A DNA stretch of 64,000 nt from Vallitalea guaymasensis (GTDB lineage Bacteria; Bacillota; Clostridia; Lachnospirales; Vallitaleaceae), in the NCBI RefSeq assembly GCF_018141425.1, contig NZ_CP058561.1:2232001-2296000 (forward strand), read 5' to 3'. This document shows, piece after piece, positions 13,742 through 21,649 of the stretch. The notes beneath the pieces are model-generated. The model ran no database searches and was not told where the DNA came from. It worked only from the letters and a program-made list of their open reading frames with translations. The stretch's first letter is position 1, and every line of letters starts with the position of its first letter. The position numbers and the translations under genes were made by a program.

Positions 13742-14302
13742 ATGAAGAAGATATATTCAACAAATAGATTGGTACTACGAACTATTGATACATCCTTCAC
13801 TAGAAGGGTATTAGACTATTATACACGTAACAAAGATTTTCTGATGCCTTGGGAACCAAAACGTGAACAAAACTTTTATAAGCCTATGACACATAGAAAA
13901 ACTTTACGAAGAGAACAAGATCTAATTAATAATCTATCTATGCTCAGGCTTTGGATTTTCAAGAAAGAGGATACTGGTTTTGAAAGAATTATAGGAACCT
14001 TAGCCTTCTCCAACATTGTTAGAGGCTGTTTTCAATCATGTTTCTTAGGATATAAGCTTGATAAAGATGAAATTAATAAAGGTTATATGTCAGAAGCTCT
14101 TGAAAAAGGAATAGAAGTAATGTTTCATGACTATAAGCTTCACCGCATAGAAGCTAACATAATACCTAGGAATGAAGCTTCAATTAATCTAGTTAAAAAA
14201 TTAGGATTCACTAACGAAGGACTATCAAAGAAATATCTTAAGATCAATGATATATGGGAGGATCACTATCATATGGTATTGCTTAATGAAGACATGGAAT
14301 AG
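13742..14302 (+). CDS. RimJ/RimL-type GNAT N-acetyltransferase
   Basis: 186 aa. It opens STNRLVLRTIDTSFTRRVLDYY, the usual RimJ/RimL entry. It contains FLGYKLDKDEINKGYMSEAL (acetyl-CoA binding region), then LHRIEANIIPRNEASINLVKKLGF, the standard C-terminal motif. Closest named role in this family is acetylation of ribosomal protein N-termini, but the substrate is unknown. It follows folT by 20 bases and is probably in the same riboswitch-controlled transcript. AGAGG lies nine bases before the ATG. Confidence 0.88.
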   Translation: MKKIYSTNRLVLRTIDTSFTRRVLDYYTRNKDFLMPWEPKREQNFYKPMTHRKTLRREQDLINNLSMLRLWIFKKEDTGFERIIGTLAFSNIVRGCFQSCFLGYKLDKDEINKGYMSEALEKGIEVMFHDYKLHRIEANIIPRNEASINLVKKLGFTNEGLSKKYLKINDIWEDHYHMVLLNEDME

Positions 14303-14450
14303 AAAAATAAATGTAGAAATATATCTTATAATAAGAAATGTTAACACATTATTTACATTTGAAACATGAATTATACACAATTATATACTATGATGGTATT
14401 GTAAGAAAAAACTCTTACATAAGAAACTCCCCCCTCATTCTTTATATAAT

Positions 14451-14490
14451 AAAAAAGCATTGATTAAATCCTCGGATCAATGCTTTTTTT
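14451..14490. terminator. Bidirectional terminator between folT operon and RiPP-like cassette
   Basis: AAAAAAGCATTGAT (14451-14464) and ATCAATGCTTTTTT (14476-14489) form a long perfect stem with A and T runs on both sides. It can end the plus-strand folT transcript and the minus-strand peptidase transcript. It also marks the left edge of the very AT-rich cassette. Confidence 0.85.
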
Positions 14491-14544
14491 GTTGTAACAT
14501 TATATTCCTAATTTATCAATATAGGCACTATAACATTTTTTAAA

Positions 14545-15783
14545 TTACTCATTGTTTAGTATTCTTTCAAGAATAAAATCAGTTTCATTAATCAAATCTT
14601 CTTTTCTTAGTGTTATATATATATCAGGATAAATAGCATCATTAAACTGATTATTTTGAGATAATGGATTTTTCACGGGCATTGTAGCTACTTTATATAT
14701 TATCTTTGAATTGGACAACATATAACTTTTAGAATTACCAAAAGAATGTACTTTTGTTCCTGTAGGCTCTCCTACTATAATACCTAATTTATTATATTTG
14801 TAAACAGCTGCTAATGCTGAAGATGAGCTAAATGTCTTCTTAGATATTAATATGTATGTATCTCCTATAAATAATAATTCTTCTTTTTTCTTATTAGTCA
14901 TCATAATATAATTCAAATCCACATACGATTCAACATCATAATATTTAATTAAATCGGAGATAAAAAACGAATCTCCCCCTGGACTTTCTCTTAAATCCAG
15001 TATAACTTTGTTAATATTATTATCTTTTACTTGTGTAAAAAAAGCCTCTAAAAATTCTCTAGTTTCATCATTATGCTCTAGATAATACAAATACATAATA
15101 GCAGTACTATTTTCAGAATCAATAGTATAATAATTCTTAAATTCTTTAGATTTTCTTTCAATAACATCTAATTTAACTGATACTTTTTCCATTGTATTAT
15201 TTTTACGATTTATCACCAAGTCTATTTGATTATTTTGATCTATTAACCCTAAATATTGTAAGTATTTTTTTTGTGGCAACAATTGTTCTATCCTATATTT
15301 AAGCCAACCTTTATTATCAGCAGGAATAATGTCTTTCATTTTATTCAATAAATCTTTACAATTATAGTTACCAATTTTAATTATTTTATCTCCTTTATGC
15401 AATATATCTGTAGATTTATTAATATATAAATCCTCACCAATCCATATTATATCTAAATCTAAGAAGTCACCATCATCTTGATAATAATCAATAGTAGTGT
15501 GGCCATCATTTAAATATGCAAGTGCTTTGCTTACAATAAAATAAAATTGATTTATTTTTTGTTTACTAGGCAGTTCTTTAATTAATTTATCAATAAATTT
15601 TACATACGATTTAATTTGGTCTGTTTCTTGCATAGAAGGATGATTAGCAATAATTGTTTCTTTTAGAGTCATTAAATCATTACTCATTTTATCTTTCTCT
15701 ATGTAATTCTCATTATTAATAACTTTATACACTAATATCAAAATTATTATTGCTATAATTAATATACTGTATTTTCTCTTCAT
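14545..15783 (-). CDS. Membrane-anchored S41-family peptidase in RiPP-like cassette
   Basis: 412 aa. An N-terminal membrane anchor (residues 6-22, SILIIAIIILILVYKVI) is followed by an extracytoplasmic region. S41 features: YLNDGHT at 90-96, a typical helical-bundle motif; LDLRESPGGDS at 262-272; the nucleophile region KKTFSSSSALAA at 316-327; and GEPTGTK at 338-344. The usual PDZ domain is not obvious. Last gene of the minus-strand unit behind the exporter (62-base gap). In this setting it probably trims the exported peptide or removes its leader outside the membrane; that role is inference. GGTGG lies five bases before the ATG. Confidence 0.85.
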   Translation of the reverse strand: MKRKYSILIIAIIILILVYKVINNENYIEKDKMSNDLMTLKETIIANHPSMQETDQIKSYVKFIDKLIKELPSKQKINQFYFIVSKALAYLNDGHTTIDYYQDDGDFLDLDIIWIGEDLYINKSTDILHKGDKIIKIGNYNCKDLLNKMKDIIPADNKGWLKYRIEQLLPQKKYLQYLGLIDQNNQIDLVINRKNNTMEKVSVKLDVIERKSKEFKNYYTIDSENSTAIMYLYYLEHNDETREFLEAFFTQVKDNNINKVILDLRESPGGDSFFISDLIKYYDVESYVDLNYIMMTNKKKEELLFIGDTYILISKKTFSSSSALAAVYKYNKLGIIVGEPTGTKVHSFGNSKSYMLSNSKIIYKVATMPVKNPLSQNNQFNDAIYPDIYITLRKEDLINETDFILERILNNE

Positions 15784-15845
15784 TTTTCCACCTATTTATT
15801 TACCAAACATATAAATATATTTTTTATAATTAAACACTAATTATC

Positions 15846-17435
15846 TCAAGAATATTTCAATTCATTAATGTCGTCAAAATTAATTGTATAATCACATATA
15901 TCAAGCAAATCATTATTGTGTGATATAATAATAACTATCTTATTATTCTTAATTTTAATAAGTTGTTTTTTTAATAAAGATATGCTCTTATTATCCAATG
16001 CATTAGTAGGTTCATCTAGTAAAAGTATATCTAAATCTTTTAATATTGCTTGCAGAAGTGATAATTTTTGCTTTTCTCCACCTGAAATGATTGTGCCTTT
16101 TTCAATCAATTCATTGTTTTTAATAATCTTATTGATTATTCCACTGTCAATAAAATTACTAACAAAATTATTATTATCATATTTTAAAATATTATCAATT
16201 ATTAAATCTTGATTTTGCTCACAAAAACTAACATTGTTTTTTCTAAACTCATATAAATCAATTGTAGATATATCTTTATTATTATAACATATATTACCTT
16301 CATAATCTTGTTCTATGCCTAACAAAACATCAAAAAATGTACTCTTACCTATACCATTCTTTCCTTTTATAACATAAATATTACCTTTTTTAAATCTAAG
16401 ATTTAAATTATAAAATAATCTCTTTTCATTTATTTTCATTGATAAATTAATAACATCTATAGTATCAATGTTTTTAATTTTGGTATTTCCATTATGTAAC
16501 TCAGGAATTTTCAAAATCTCTTTTAATCGTGTATATGAAACTTTGTAATCTTGATATCTTTTTAAATAACCAGTAAAAAAAGCTATAGTATCTAATAGTC
16601 TATTATAGTAATTATTAAATAATGTAAAATTTCCTATACTCATAGTACCATTAATTATTTCTACTCCTCCTATAATTATTATTACTATTAAACATACAAA
16701 TCTAACAACTTGACATAAAGAATTATACAAAGTACTTACACTTACGTAATCCAGCATATTTTTTAAATTAGAATTGAATAATTCTTGATATTTATTAGTA
16801 AAACCAGTGAACAATGATTTTCTTAAAATGGAATTTTTATTATCTAAACTTTTATTTTGAAAAGAATAAAACTCATTCTCACTTTCTATGCTTACAAGAT
16901 ATTTTTTTGAGATTTTATCTTTAAAAATATAATGAACACATATATTTAATATACTTAATACGAGTAATATTAGTGTAATATTTCTATTTATCCTATATAG
17001 GTAGATAATTATTATAAATAACTTTATTAAATTTATAAACATTGTCATTGTATCATTAAACAAGAAATTAATTATTTGTTTAGTATCTTCATCAATTCTT
17101 TTTGTATAATATGAGGATTTGCCAGTATCAATAGCTCTTTTCGAGGTCCTAAAAAGATGAAGAAAAATATCTTTTTTTAAATTTACAGCTAATATATTAT
17201 TTAATTTTGTAGAAACAATAGTTAAAATATAGTATAAAACAACTTGGAAAATCACTAATAACCCTATTAAAATAATATAATGTACAAAATCCCCTTTTTT
17301 ATCCAACACCATAACTGTATCTATAAATTTTGATAATAAAATAGGTAATATTAATGAACTTATTTCTAGTATTGTATGTATAACAAATATATTAAAAATC
17401 TTCAACTTATTATTTGATACTATTTTTCTTATCAT
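15846..17435 (-). CDS. ABC exporter (fused membrane and ATPase domains) in RiPP-like cassette
   Basis: 529 aa half-transporter. Residues 1-300 hold about six membrane helices of the type I exporter fold; 325-529 the nucleotide-binding domain with Walker A GKNGIGKST (358-366), signature SGGEKQKLSL (451-460), Walker B LLLDEPTNAL (471-480) and H-loop His506. There is no N-terminal C39 peptidase, so leader removal would need a separate enzyme, and the next gene is a peptidase. It starts six bases after the maturase stop, with its ribosome site GAAGGT inside the maturase end. Likely homodimer exporting the modified peptide (inference). Confidence 0.88.
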   Translation of the reverse strand: MIRKIVSNNKLKIFNIFVIHTILEISSLILPILLSKFIDTVMVLDKKGDFVHYIILIGLLVIFQVVLYYILTIVSTKLNNILAVNLKKDIFLHLFRTSKRAIDTGKSSYYTKRIDEDTKQIINFLFNDTMTMFINLIKLFIIIIYLYRINRNITLILLVLSILNICVHYIFKDKISKKYLVSIESENEFYSFQNKSLDNKNSILRKSLFTGFTNKYQELFNSNLKNMLDYVSVSTLYNSLCQVVRFVCLIVIIIIGGVEIINGTMSIGNFTLFNNYYNRLLDTIAFFTGYLKRYQDYKVSYTRLKEILKIPELHNGNTKIKNIDTIDVINLSMKINEKRLFYNLNLRFKKGNIYVIKGKNGIGKSTFFDVLLGIEQDYEGNICYNNKDISTIDLYEFRKNNVSFCEQNQDLIIDNILKYDNNNFVSNFIDSGIINKIIKNNELIEKGTIISGGEKQKLSLLQAILKDLDILLLDEPTNALDNKSISLLKKQLIKIKNNKIVIIISHNNDLLDICDYTINFDDINELKYS

Positions 17436-17441
17436 ATCATT

Positions 17442-18737
17442 TCAACCTTCAGTTATTTTTTTATCGCACCAAGCATTATAGTATTTTAACAAAATAGTTT
17501 TTATAGATGCTGCATTTCTTGTGCATGCAGCACTATTATTATTATACATTCTAGCATGAGGACAACCGCCCAAACATAATGGTAAGAATTTACATTTATA
17601 ACATTCATGAGGTATTTCCATATTTACAAATTTTATTAAATTTATTACATTGTTGTCTCCTTCTACAATATTACCAATTTTAAATTTAGTGAGGCCTACT
17701 TGTTCCCAACATTTAAACACGTCACCATTAGGATCAATAACAGCTGAATTAATACATTGTGCACCACAAGCAACAGATATTGGGCTTGGAAAAAATTTAT
17801 TAACACTTTCTTTTGTTAAAAAACTATTGAATATATTAGTTTGAAAATTAGCAAAATCAATAAAATTCAAACAACCTTCATACCCATCATTTTTCTTATC
17901 TTCAACAGGTGCAACATAAATTTTTACTCTATCATTTGGTAATACAGAATGTAAATATGTTATTAATTGTGGAATTTCATTTTGATTATCTATATCAGTA
18001 TTTATCCTCACAGCTATACTTATAATATTGCATGCATTTTTTATATTCTTTATAATTGTTTTAAAGCTATTAGATCCATCTATAGTTATTCGTCGATTAT
18101 TATGAGTTTTTTCTAATCCATCAATAGTTACTTGTGCAAATGTAACTTTATATTCTAATAATGTCTTAGCCATTTCCTCAGTTAATAGTAATCCATTTGT
18201 TACTATATTAGCAGTATAATTTAGTTCTTTTTCGTTACACATACTTATAATTTTTTTACTCATTTTTTTAATTAAATCAATAGCTAATAGTGGTTCTCCA
18301 CCATACCATGTGATACTAATATTTTTAATACCAGATATTATTTGCTTATCAATATGGTCAATAATTTTATCACTAACCTCTTTACTCATATATATATTAT
18401 TCTTTTTTTCATAACAATATGGACAAGCCATATTACAATCTAATGTTAGTGCTATAGTATAATTATAACTTTTCTGCTGATATTTAGCTAAATTACTTTT
18501 AAATTTAATTAATTCAATTTCATCTAATTCATAATTCACAATAAACCCTTGCTCATAAAGCTTTCTTCCTATTTCATCCTCTCTAATATTAATATTTTTA
18601 GTATCAACATTATATAAATAATCTATGTATTTTTCATCTAATACAACATAAGAGCAATTAGATGAGTTGAAAAATAACTTCTTGCCATTTTCTATATTAT
18701 CTATTTCTATATTAAATATAGATTGCTTATATCTCAT
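17442..18737 (-). CDS. Radical SAM/SPASM peptide maturase
   Basis: 431 aa. N-terminal ~90 residues may be the peptide-recognition (RRE-like) part. The radical SAM cluster motif CNMACPYC gives Cys101, Cys105, Cys108; WYGGEPL (144-150) is the SAM-binding GGE motif. The SPASM region has Cys324, 328, 343, 379, 382, 388, 392 and 405 (DPNGDVFKCWEQVG; CYKCKFLPLCLGGCPH), enough for two extra [4Fe-4S] clusters. This architecture is shared by enzymes that make thioether or C-C links in peptides and, from memory, by CcpM-type Cys-rich peptide maturases of Clostridium. It lies 89 bases downstream of a Cys-rich precursor gene on the same strand. The chemistry performed is not known. Confidence 0.9.
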   Translation of the reverse strand: MRYKQSIFNIEIDNIENGKKLFFNSSNCSYVVLDEKYIDYLYNVDTKNINIREDEIGRKLYEQGFIVNYELDEIELIKFKSNLAKYQQKSYNYTIALTLDCNMACPYCYEKKNNIYMSKEVSDKIIDHIDKQIISGIKNISITWYGGEPLLAIDLIKKMSKKIISMCNEKELNYTANIVTNGLLLTEEMAKTLLEYKVTFAQVTIDGLEKTHNNRRITIDGSNSFKTIIKNIKNACNIISIAVRINTDIDNQNEIPQLITYLHSVLPNDRVKIYVAPVEDKKNDGYEGCLNFIDFANFQTNIFNSFLTKESVNKFFPSPISVACGAQCINSAVIDPNGDVFKCWEQVGLTKFKIGNIVEGDNNVINLIKFVNMEIPHECYKCKFLPLCLGGCPHARMYNNNSAACTRNAASIKTILLKYYNAWCDKKITEG

Positions 18738-18776
18738 ATTATCATCCCTTTAATTATTTAATATTAATTTTTATAG

Positions 18777-18822
18777 TTTAAAATATTAGTCTTATTTCAT
18801 TGAATAAGACTAATATTTTAAA
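18777..18822 (-). terminator. Perfect 20-bp intercistronic hairpin between precursor and maturase genes
   Basis: TTTAAAATATTAGTCTTATT (18777-18796) and its exact reverse complement (18803-18822) flank a 6-base loop. It begins four bases after the precursor stop codon. No clean T-run follows on the minus strand, so it is better seen as a partial terminator or 3' stabiliser giving much precursor and little enzyme than as a full stop. Confidence 0.6.
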
Positions 18823-18826
18823 ATCA

Positions 18827-19000
18827 CTAGAATTTTACACCAACACAGGTATCAACATTAGCAGGAACACAAACAGGTACATGTACGCATCCTTTATCAC
18901 AATAGGTACAAGGGGGTGGTGTTGTATTCGTACAATTACTACAACCAGAATTTTCACAAATAATCATATAAGATATTGTTCCCGATTTAATCACATCCAT
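18827..19000 (-). CDS. Cys-rich RiPP-like precursor peptide A
   Basis: 57 aa, ATG at 19000, preceded by GAGAGGAGG. Short leader-like start MDVIKSGTISYMIICENSG, then a Cys-rich part with CSNC, CTYCDKGC, HVPVC and a final DTCVGVKF. Eight Cys at 15, 20, 23, 31, 34, 38, 44 and 52, and a PPP run before the CTYC block. It is the promoter-proximal gene of the maturase-exporter-peptidase unit. A second homologous peptide is encoded divergently at 19211. Conservation of both ends between the two copies (IKSG.ISY.I.CENSG and YCDK.C.HVPVC) is strong evidence that this frame is real. Its activity is unknown; a bacteriocin or signal is possible. Confidence 0.85.
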   Translation of the reverse strand: MDVIKSGTISYMIICENSGCSNCTNTTPPPCTYCDKGCVHVPVCVPANVDTCVGVKF

Positions 19001-19017
19001 ACTTAAGCCTCCTCTCT

Positions 19018-19048
19018 TAGTGTATATTTAATATAGTGTATATTTAAT
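19018..19048. repeat. Tandem 15-bp repeat in the precursor A leader
   Basis: TAGTGTATATTTAAT occurs at 19018-19032 and again at 19034-19048 (period 16). It lies between the minus-strand -10 box and the ribosome site of precursor A. It could be a regulator-binding pair; no regulator gene is present in the cassette. Confidence 0.6.
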
Positions 19049-19071
19049 CTATATGTACTATATCATATATT

Positions 19072-19100
19072 AATATAACTCATGTAGTATTATTTGTAAA
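19072..19100 (-). promoter_or_regulatory. Promoter of precursor A and the maturation genes
   Basis: On the minus strand TTTACA (19095-19100), 17-bp spacer, TATATT (19072-19077). Transcription would start near 19065, leaving a ~65-base leader that contains the tandem repeat. Confidence 0.6.
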
Positions 19101-19145
19101 TTTATATCATATTTATCCAAAAAAAAAGCTATTTGTATTTTTTAT

Positions 19146-19174
19146 TTGACATTAAAATACAATTATTATATAAT
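19146..19174 (+). promoter_or_regulatory. Consensus promoter of precursor B
   Basis: TTGACA (19146-19151), exactly 17 bp, TATAAT (19169-19174): a full sigma-A consensus. It sits ~37 bases ahead of the TTG start of precursor B, predicting strong expression of that short transcript. Confidence 0.8.
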
Positions 19175-19210
19175 TGAAAATATTATATTTAACACTAGGA
19201 GGTATTTATT

Positions 19211-19387
19211 TTGGACATTATTAAATCAGGAAATATATCTTATGTTATTGTTTGTGAAAATTCAGGACATTGTCCCAGTAATAATTATTGTAGCAATTGC
19301 GAAAATTGTACTAATTGCATACACTGTGTATATTGTGATAAAAGTTGTACACATGTACCTGTATGTATAGCGGTATTTCCTTTTTAA
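19211..19387 (+). CDS. Cys-rich RiPP-like precursor peptide B (TTG start)
   Basis: 58 aa, TTG start eight bases after AGGAGG. The start resembles peptide A: MDIIKSGNISYVIVCENSG (first residue read as Met). Ten Cys; six of them at 27, 30, 33, 36, 39 and 42 form a strict three-residue periodicity, CSNCENCTNCIHCVYC, then DKSC and HVPVC, ending IAVFPF. It is transcribed away from the maturation genes by its own consensus promoter. The non-ATG start and small size make it easy to overlook. Homology with peptide A across leader and tail makes a real gene nearly certain; whether the same maturase acts on both is inferred. Confidence 0.85.
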   Translation: MDIIKSGNISYVIVCENSGHCPSNNYCSNCENCTNCIHCVYCDKSCTHVPVCIAVFPF

Positions 19388-19529
19388 TTTATTTATACAT
19401 ATTAACATCTAATATAGAATTTTAATTCCACACAATACAAAAATATATTTAATTATCAATAATAAAGAAGTATAAACTTTCTTACCAAGAGCATATAGCG
19501 TTTATTTAGATTTATTTAATAGTAATGAT

Positions 19530-20261
19530 TTATTTATTGAACTCAACAATATTTTTCCTGTATCTAGTGGGAACGAATTGTCTTTGTAATACAAGATTTT
19601 TTCTCTCCTTAATTCCTATATGCTCAAAATAGCCTTTCCACATTTCTTGAAAATTTCTTTCTCTCTCTGAAATAGCTATATCTTCCTGATACTCAAAGTC
19701 TGTTATCATCCATTCTCTTTTATTATATATAACTGCTTTATTACGCTTTTTATCATGGATAATAAATTTCTCATTTTTCATTCGATCCGCAAAATGGTCA
19801 GCAAGTAATTCAATAACATCATTGTCAGGCGTTAACGGTGCATACAGCACATCTCCCACCTCTTGGAATCTTAACAAACCTAACAATCTATGCCTTTCCT
19901 TTGATACTTTGGAAGATAGGTTATGGACATTCAGAACATCTTTATGAGTATGGTCGTTGTCTATTTTATAACCCATCTTAAATCCTAATTCCAGATATTT
20001 TAATATATAGCAGTCTTTTTTGTAATCATCGGATAAAAAGGTATAATAGACGTTTTTCATAGCTTCATCGGATATCTTATTCCATATGGCATCATATACT
20101 TTACCTGCTTTTTTATCATCAGTAGCAATATTAACTTCTTGTTCTAATAGTTGTATTTCATATCTATTTTCATAATATATTCCATTAGCTTTTTCAGTAT
20201 AATAATGTTCGTATACACAAGTTAAGAGTCCATTAAATGTTCCATCATGTAAATACACCAT
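19530..20261 (-). CDS. DNA repair-type partner protein (TIGR03915/DUF4130 family)
   Basis: 243 aa soluble protein opening MVYLHDGTFNGLLTCVYEHY, the hallmark of the DUF4130 family. That family is nearly always encoded beside the radical SAM protein found here immediately upstream. Later blocks KERHRLLGLLRF, VLYAPLTPDNDVIELLADHF and FMIHD-like KFIIHDKKRNKAVIYNKREW also fit. The family is annotated as putative DNA metabolism with no known reaction. It lies 149 bases downstream of its partner. AAAGGA precedes the ATG. Confidence 0.85.
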   Translation of the reverse strand: MVYLHDGTFNGLLTCVYEHYYTEKANGIYYENRYEIQLLEQEVNIATDDKKAGKVYDAIWNKISDEAMKNVYYTFLSDDYKKDCYILKYLELGFKMGYKIDNDHTHKDVLNVHNLSSKVSKERHRLLGLLRFQEVGDVLYAPLTPDNDVIELLADHFADRMKNEKFIIHDKKRNKAVIYNKREWMITDFEYQEDIAISERERNFQEMWKGYFEHIGIKERKNLVLQRQFVPTRYRKNIVEFNK

Positions 20262-20410
20262 ATTATCAATCCTTTATTAATTATTGCTATATATTAAATT
20301 TAACCATCTATTCCGATTTCAATAGGTTCAATATATTTTGACTTGTTATCATCCTAATAGAACATAAGAATGGCTGTCTCATAAAAATTGCTTAATTCTA
20401 TTTGATGTAT

Positions 20411-21649
20411 TTATATTTTCAAAGTAAGTTGTTCATAAGGTGGTAAAGGATTCAAGATGGTTTTAATAGTCTCTGGATCAAGATTTTTTTCTCCGTAATA
20501 CTTTCCGTTGCATGTGACAAAAAATCTAGCTCTTTTCAATACCACTCCCATTTTTTTCAAATCTTCATAAGTAATTATTCTTACTTTTCTTTGTTTTAGT
20601 ATTCTTCTAGCTGAAATCATTCCAATCCCAGGAATTCTTAATAATTCGTTTACCGATACTTTGTTTACTTCTTTTGGGAATTCACCAATATTTCTAAGTG
20701 CCCATATCATCTTAGGATCATAGTCCAAATCAAAATTGGGATTGCTGTTATCCAGTAATTCTTTTGCTTCAAATTTATAGAATCTCAATAGCCAATCTGC
20801 TTGATATAACCTGTGTTCCCTAAGCATTGGTGTTGTAGTTGCACTTATGGCAGGTAGGTTACCACCTTTATTGACAGGTACATATGCAGAAAAATATACT
20901 CTTTTTAACTTGAATCTTTTATATAATTGATCAGTTATGCTTAACATTGACAAATCACTTTCACTGGTAGCTCCTACAATCATCTGAGTAGATTGACCTG
21001 CTGGAACGAATTTTTTGGCATGTTTGTAACGAGCTACTTCGTAACTTGATTTATTTATCTCATCTTTTATTTGATTCATGGGTAAGAATAATTTCTTCAT
21101 TGTTTTTTGAGGTGCTAATAATTTTAGTCCATCTTCTGTTGGTAATTCTATATTAACGCTCATCCTATCTGCAAGCTCTCCTGCTTGCTTAATAAGTATC
21201 TTATCTGCTCCTGGTATAGCTTTTACATGAATATAACCAGAAAATCCATAGTGATTTCTAAGTATAAGTAGAGTCTTGACAATCTTCTCCATTGTGTGAT
21301 TAGGATTTTTTTCAACAGCTGAGCTTAAGAATAGACCTTCTATATAGTTTCTTCTATAAAATTCAATAGTAAGTTCAGCTACTTCTTCCGGTGTGAAACT
21401 AGCTCTTTGTACATCATTACTCAATCTATTAACACAGTATTCACAATCATATACGCAATAATTGCTAAGTAATATTTTTAATAAGGATACACATCTACCA
21501 TCAGACGCCCAAGTATGACATATACCACTAGCTTGCGAACTTCCTATCTTACCTGTATTCTTTCGATTAACACCACTAGAAGCACATGAAACATCATACT
21601 TAGCTGCATCAGCTAATACTTGTAATTTTTCTATTATATTCTTCTTCAT
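20411..21649 (-). CDS. Putative DNA modification/repair radical SAM protein (TIGR03916 family)
   Basis: 412 aa. Radical SAM motif CVYDCEYC (about residues 69-76) after SLLKILLSNY. The central part GLFLSSAVEKNPNHTMEKI and FVPAGQSTQMIVGATSESD matches this family. The C-terminus carries a helix-hairpin-helix DNA-binding element VNELLRIPGIGMISARRILKQRK-like (written here from residues ~345-365). Together these suggest a radical enzyme acting on DNA, with the DUF4130 protein as partner. The substrate lesion or modification is unknown. GGTGATT lies before the ATG. Confidence 0.88.
   Translation of the reverse strand: MKKNIIEKLQVLADAAKYDVSCASSGVNRKNTGKIGSSQASGICHTWASDGRCVSLLKILLSNYCVYDCEYCVNRLSNDVQRASFTPEEVAELTIEFYRRNYIEGLFLSSAVEKNPNHTMEKIVKTLLILRNHYGFSGYIHVKAIPGADKILIKQAGELADRMSVNIELPTEDGLKLLAPQKTMKKLFLPMNQIKDEINKSSYEVARYKHAKKFVPAGQSTQMIVGATSESDLSMLSITDQLYKRFKLKRVYFSAYVPVNKGGNLPAISATTTPMLREHRLYQADWLLRFYKFEAKELLDNSNPNFDLDYDPKMIWALRNIGEFPKEVNKVSVNELLRIPGIGMISARRILKQRKVRIITYEDLKKMGVVLKRARFFVTCNGKYYGEKNLDPETIKTILNPLPPYEQLTLKI

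Follow-up and report, generated by a model that had tools for sequence, protein, structure and literature searches.

The window analysed here is a 64,000-nucleotide stretch of the genome of Vallitalea guaymasensis (contig NZ_CP058561.1, positions 2,232,001 to 2,296,000 of the forward strand), and all coordinates below refer to it. It carries a small island of five genes, namely two short, paralogous Cys-rich peptide genes on opposite strands (precursors A and B) and a minus-strand unit encoding a radical SAM/SPASM maturase, an ATP-binding cassette (ABC) exporter, and an S41 peptidase. As in cassettes for ribosomally synthesized and post-translationally modified peptides (RiPPs), a short precursor gene adjoins a peptide-modifying enzyme, and the sequence evidence makes it probable that the island is a cassette making two RiPPs, a system of a known kind whose precursor family is new. 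The island and its genes are as follows:

14491-19528, no strand: island of 5038 bases (~5.0 kb) with five genes, absent at the same site in a congener (G018)
14446-14490, no strand: terminator-like hairpin of the host site at the left border (blastn match to the empty site over 53 columns, 91%; read by eye, not reported by the terminator scan)
14545-15783, minus strand: S41 peptidase with a hydrophobic N-terminus and conserved His95 and Ser319 (Pfam PF03572, 56.2 bits, cut-off 24)
15846-17435, minus strand: ABC exporter, transmembrane and ATPase parts (Pfam PF00664 and PF00005)
17442-18737, minus strand: radical SAM/SPASM peptide maturase with an N-terminal domain resembling a RiPP recognition element in shape (NCBIfam, conserved Cys, AlphaFold2, tree)
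18827-19000, minus strand: precursor A, 57 aa, 8 Cys, ATG start, AGGAGG upstream
19211-19387, plus strand: precursor B, 58 aa, 10 Cys, TTG start, AGGAGG 8 bases upstream

Precursors A and B are paralogs, sharing a common head, the tail YCDKxCxHVPVC, and 64% identity in the alignment. A preliminary description, made from the sequence alone, had pointed to two short Cys-rich open reading frames (ORFs) with common ends on opposite strands, and its coordinates, lengths, Cys counts (checked by script), and paralogy were all verified. The start of B had been given as methionine, whereas the codon is TTG. At least seven Cys were found in 4 of the 496 window ORFs of 25-110 aa, and among these, a ribosome-binding site was detected by the script only for A and B, which are also the only window ORFs combining such a site with a start of the form M[DEN][IV]I. 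CxxC-type spacing occurs in the peptides and is densest in B. Neither peptide matched any family of NCBIfam (precursor models included) or Pfam at an E-value of 10.

The base differences between A and B are distributed over codon positions 1, 2, and 3 as 14, 10, and 25 (50 aligned codons), and 32 residues are identical (49 aligned codons, start codon excluded). Random placement of the same 48 base changes left, on average, 19.6 identical residues, with at least 32 being retained in none of 5000 trials. The NG86 method yielded dN 0.27 and dS 1.99, i.e., a dN/dS of ~0.14 for two sequences only, with dS near saturation. The preliminary description had allowed for two frames free of selection at the protein level; dN/dS and the random placements instead indicate that A and B are under pairwise purifying selection.

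Membership of the modifying enzyme in the radical SAM/SPASM group was evident from its CxxxCxxC motif (C101, C105, and C108) and its SPASM cysteines (C324, C343, C379, C382, C388, C392, and C405), all being invariant in 38 sequences, and from the NCBIfam SPASM domain TIGR04085 (59.5 bits, cut-off 27); the Pfam SPASM score of 14.7 bits remained below its cut-off of 21.5. Among the 25 models listed, this general domain model was the only one passed, and every equivalog cut-off was missed. The best models were Clo7bot TIGR04334 (258.7 bits, cut-off 600), TIGR04463 (237.6 bits, cut-off 525), and CefB NF038107 (220.9 bits, cut-off 600), while SCIFF TIGR03974 and CcpM TIGR04068 reached 84.2 bits (cut-off 425) and 90.8 bits (cut-off 500), respectively. 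An assignment to the "Clo7bot/CcpM type", made beforehand, can thus be kept only insofar as Clo7bot is the nearest model; its cut-off is far from being reached, and CcpM is remote. Congeners encode no closely related maturase, the best ones being 36% identical. A ten-sequence alignment searched against contigs of 84,980 species recovered 474 relatives, the best 80 of the 474 all showing at most 39% identity. Viral contigs contained no match for the maturase. A tree of 88 maturases placed the window enzyme with eight others (100/97); joined by the enzyme of locus L052, these formed a set of ten (96/96), the bootstrap not being fully settled and the window branch being long (1.17). Based on these sequence comparisons, the enzyme belongs to an unnamed set below all listed NCBIfam equivalog cut-offs.

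The confident AlphaFold2 model of the maturase (pLDDT 91.5) found its best Protein Data Bank match in 5why_A (TM 0.69), and 5wgg also came first in the sequence-profile search; the identity to 5wgg/5why is 23-24%. The 5why protein is a thioether-forming maturase consisting of a recognition domain, a radical SAM domain, and a SPASM domain. At the N-terminus of the model, strands were predicted at residues 3-5, 9-14, 20-24, and 29-33, and helices at 35-42, 55-62, and 73-85. Three strands and three helices are expected of a RiPP recognition element according to a passage in PMC8326336, and the modelled fold would fit this element as expected.

A common start of the precursors was found to follow the maturase set. 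Candidates were defined as short Cys-rich ORFs with a ribosome-binding site, located within 2 kb of the maturase and on its strand. Beside nine other members of the set, the M[DEN][IV]I start was present in 9 of 10 candidates (the 10 from six loci, the 9 from five). Beside 80 other locus records, it was present in none of 121, with 68 of these carrying an aromatic third residue. Counted by locus, 5 of 6 in the set compare with 0 of 57 outside. Both A and B carry the signature (M-D-I/V-I-K-S-G ...). With respect to leader recognition by the enzyme, the observations comprise a signature tracking the set (post hoc) and a predicted fold resembling a recognition domain. The preliminary description had asked for conservation of the peptide frames beside homologous maturases: Cys-rich short ORFs with a recognisable N-terminus are indeed usual there, but the exact family (CENSG, YCDKxCxHVPVC) was found beside none.

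Two or more leader-matching precursors were present in 17 of the 40 loci having any, and precursors with a shared head and differing cores were likewise seen at L052, L054, and L056. None of the 89 comparison loci (one of which is counted twice, as L046 and L123) had a leader-matching precursor on the other strand from the maturase, so that the divergent pair is unusual in this sample. Two further loci featured precursor arrangements of their own. In the same genus, a short ORF, MKHCCLKMKHCCLKIKHCCVKPPPG..., lies directly upstream of a superfamily maturase (L046:9302-9421) and contains a repeated KHCC(L/V)K unit, possibly representing an unusual repeat precursor. A metagenome-assembled genome of Candidatus Aminicenantes (L079:1705-2550) encodes a radical SAM maturase and, on the other strand, a tandem array of four Cys-rich precursors of the GG-leader type; it additionally has two precursors of the MDYLVEP/MEYIIEP type.

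The borders of the island were deduced from the empty site (L161) of congener G018. The left part of the match ends at 14490, where the shared hairpin ends, and the next shared base is 19529, thus placing the island between them. The flanking genes, an acetyltransferase gene before and a TIGR03915 gene after the island, are 92.5% and 95.0% identical to those of G018 at the protein level and lie 78 bases apart there versus 5227 in the window. In G014, G016, and G017, too, they adjoin each other (gaps of 268, 258, and 208 bases); in G015, they are 2.3 kb apart and rearranged, and this genome therefore does not offer a clean empty site. According to the simplest reading of these alignments, the island was gained in the lineage of the window. 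Since its borders enclose all five genes, B belongs to the cassette, which bears out the earlier proposal of a single unit made up of the precursors, the maturase, the exporter, and the peptidase.

Nothing else was recognised in the island, and no regulator or metal gene was found among its genes. A mobile element was considered and rejected, as no integrase was present among the listed island ORFs and the island ends share no repeat longer than 9 bases. The island is AT-rich: across 14000-19999, the G+C fraction of 1-kb windows is 0.21 to 0.27, compared with 0.27 to 0.35 outside this range. Elsewhere in the compared stretches of the congeners, the exporter had weak matches (24-27% identity) and the maturase a single short one; none of these represents the cassette. 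On the right flank, a putative DNA-repair pair of TIGR03915 and TIGR03916 (radical SAM) genes, both over their cut-offs, occupies 19530-21649 and is kept in the five congeners compared. The gene at 21778-22251 matches G018 only in fragments (57% covered) and may therefore be broken or diverged there.

The composition of the minus-strand unit, as described previously, was supported by its Pfam and NCBIfam domains and by the hydrophobic N-terminus of the S41 peptidase; no C39 peptidase domain was found among the Pfam matches of the exporter. Of 93 locus records, 54 have an ABC transporter no further than 5 kb from the maturase. The full combination of this enzyme with an exporter, an S41 peptidase, and a Cys-rich precursor recurred at L038, L045, L053, and L061. 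One of these, L045:4563-9278, originates from a second Vallitalea-group genome and features a single, different precursor (MKYLILNP...) and a maturase of another branch. G94, H95, and S319 were invariant in all six S41 proteins of such cassettes (window included), Ser319 being the nucleophile in our own reading of the motif. For the S41 protein, AlphaFold gave a poor model (pLDDT 43.3), which was set aside. A profile of the six proteins matched retinol-binding protein 3, CtpB, Prc, and tricorn and, last and weakly, chain 4y68 of the nisin resistance protein (NSR; E 0.0096). Similar S41 proteins are encoded in 22 of 391 genomes of the class, and the window genome itself has seven S41 matches. 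No maturase was found near these genes at any of 24 loci (L131-L154, ~1.5 kb on each side), so that an S41 peptidase per se does not mark such a cassette.

The distribution of the precursors was determined with the A+B alignment in genome draws that overlap among class, phylum, and order. At E 0.01, 13 of the 391 class genomes gave a match. Only the window genome, with two matches, was convincing; in the remaining 12, the E-values of 0.001 to 0.01, stops within the frame, or long frames of the host led to the matches being judged as chance. Among 398 phylum genomes, the one outside match (G757) contained an in-frame stop, with no maturase in the 3 kb examined, and 344 order genomes gave no match outside the window genome. 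B was found only in its own genome among 22 family genomes and had no match on plasmids, and viral contigs had none for the A+B alignment. In open-licence full-text literature, nothing was found on Clo7bot or TIGR04463, on a combination of S41 peptidase, radical SAM, and RiPP, or on Vallitalea with radical SAM; related family names gave only unrelated papers among the matches listed.

Further features concern the expression of the two precursor genes:

18777-18822, minus strand: perfect 20-bp hairpin with a 6-nt loop, between A and the maturase gene (inverted repeat)
19018-19049, no strand: two head-to-tail 16-bp copies, 94% identical, in the leader region of A; possibly an operator (direct repeat)
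19072-19100, minus strand: promoter-like site for A, 10/12 (TTTACA-17-TATATT; promoter scan)
19146-19174, plus strand: exact consensus promoter for B, 12/12 (TTGACA-17-TATAAT; promoter scan)

The promoter of B ends 36 bases ahead of its start codon and is the only exact match on the plus strand of the window, which holds two, one per strand. In Markov resamples of the A-B intergenic region, an exact promoter appeared on either strand in 23 of 20,000. Promoter-like sites between 14300 and 19600 numbered 50, compared with 57.8 in shuffles; there is no excess, and the 10/12 site of A is unremarkable. The hairpin has an RNA fold z-score of -4.91, equal stability being reached in 0 of 200 shuffles. 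Possibly, it acts as a leaky terminator or processing site, and it could keep the precursors in excess over the enzyme; any such role is guesswork, as a proper T-run is lacking and the terminator scan detected no site between 14300 and 19600.

From what has been shown, namely the genes and the selection on the peptides, the borders of the island, the clade of the maturase, and the signature of the leader, the following course can be proposed. A and B would be transcribed divergently, B from its exact promoter, and their shared start would serve as the leader bound by the N-terminal recognition domain of the maturase. The enzyme would then join Cys sulfurs to nearby residues; thioether, ranthipeptide-like chemistry is a first guess. 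The modelled fold resembles a thioether-forming enzyme. The exporter, carrying no peptidase domain, would transport the modified peptides out, the membrane-anchored S41 peptidase may cut them outside, and the two different cores would result in two related products. We infer in this scheme that one enzyme modifies both peptides, as well as the bond type, the order of the steps, and the role of the S41 peptidase.

Several observations weigh against this interpretation. The M[DEN][IV]I pattern was picked after the sequences had been viewed. The tenth candidate, at L051, has a misplaced start, and its in-frame ATG leads to MELIVG, which lies outside the strict pattern with an aliphatic position 3; the same applies, by eye, to the start MKILVEG at L055. 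At the set members L050 and L095, no clear precursor was seen by eye. A general leader profile built from all candidates ranked 137 of 11,857 background ORFs level with or above B, and 716 level with or above A; these scores are only moderate and lend less support than the clade motif. An S41 peptidase lay within 5 kb of the maturase in just 4 of the 93 records, two of which (L038 and L045) helped to build the search profiles, three loci being counted twice among the 93. Moreover, the same precursors appear in no other genome searched.

The function of the S41 peptidase leads to the strongest alternative. In the absence of a peptidase in the exporter, it may remove the leader, or it may provide immunity, because H95 and S319 resemble the Ser-His dyad of NSR. 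In the latter case, a membrane-anchored protease would destroy the peptides outside the producer in the manner of NSR; the two peptides would then form a bacteriocin pair, with the leader being cut by a housekeeping protease. We regard this as a tentative possibility. NSR is described in PMC4698656 as a membrane-associated S41 protease with a Ser236-His98 dyad. The window protein keeps both residues and the hydrophobic N-terminus, its profile reaches NSR weakly, and the island has no other immunity candidate. However, the other four profile matches are better, and the NSR likeness is a motif reading. The earlier statement that neither an immunity nor a regulator gene was obvious hence stands for the regulator, while the peptidase is now a candidate for immunity.

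The products could also be signals and not weapons, as reportedly is the case for SCIFF-derived ranthipeptides of solventogenic clostridia, which involve an enzyme and precursor of the same general kind. We consider this rather doubtful, as the island lacks a regulator gene and is sporadic, fitting weapons better, whereas SCIFF is widespread among Clostridia according to a passage in PMC8326336. Because of this sporadic presence, our interpretation leans towards bacteriocins. It is improbable that the peptides merely bind metal or act via disulfides, with the maturase acting little or not at all: their CxxC-type spacing would suit such a role, but the leader signature is associated with the maturase and the exporter across loci, and a metal gene is missing from the island. 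Equally slight is the chance that only A works as a precursor and B is a stranded duplicate. Its position on the other strand, unmatched at the comparison loci, and its TTG start would agree with this, but B possesses an exact promoter, a strong ribosome-binding site, an intact frame, more Cys than A, and the signs of pairwise purifying selection.

With the RiPP cassette retained as the preferred reading, the novelty lies in the precursor family, in an unnamed set of maturases having its own leader start, and in the divergent pair; radical SAM/SPASM enzymes with Cys-rich precursors were already known. The expectation of "a new class" thus holds for the precursor family and the maturase set, but the genes give no evidence of a new chemical class. 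A more far-reaching, and in our view unlikely, proposal is that of a new RiPP subclass, in which a maturase clade has its own leader code (a small acidic residue or Asn, then two aliphatic ones, the sisters mostly having an aromatic third residue) and one enzyme set makes a two-part peptide weapon from divergent paralogs, with NSR-like S41 immunity. If the preferred reading is right, the precursor family is one named by no library searched, and a short testable rule links leader motif to maturase clade, which would help to find small precursor genes missed by annotation. Small and with clean borders, the island occurs in one Vallitalea-type genome while the site is empty in a close relative, which makes a gain-of-function comparison practical. 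For S41 peptidases in such cassettes, the question of maturation or immunity is raised.

Among known systems, Clo7bot (TIGR04334) provides the best full-length NCBIfam match of the window maturase, and its short Cys-rich precursors, often several, adjoin the maturase as well (L040, L080, L087, and L094). In contrast, the window enzyme stays far below the Clo7bot cut-off and falls on another branch of the tree, and the precursors at these four loci mostly start with MK[FY], with an aromatic third residue, unlike the MD[IV]I of the window. At L040:6134-7828, about ten tandem Cys-rich precursors precede a true Clo7bot maturase (775.3 bits, over the cut-off). TIGR04463 and CefB (Cys-every-fifth maturase) are the second and third best models, but both cut-offs are likewise far from being reached. 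The SCIFF/ranthipeptide maturases (5wgg/5why, which we take to be CteB) represent the best solved structure match with the same three domains; low identity, the low TIGR03974 score, and different precursors set them apart. Finally, NSR is approached only at E 0.0096 by the profile of the window-type peptidases, but has in common with the window protein the S41 family, the His and Ser residues, and a membrane anchor, the latter being putative for the hydrophobic N-terminus of the window protein.

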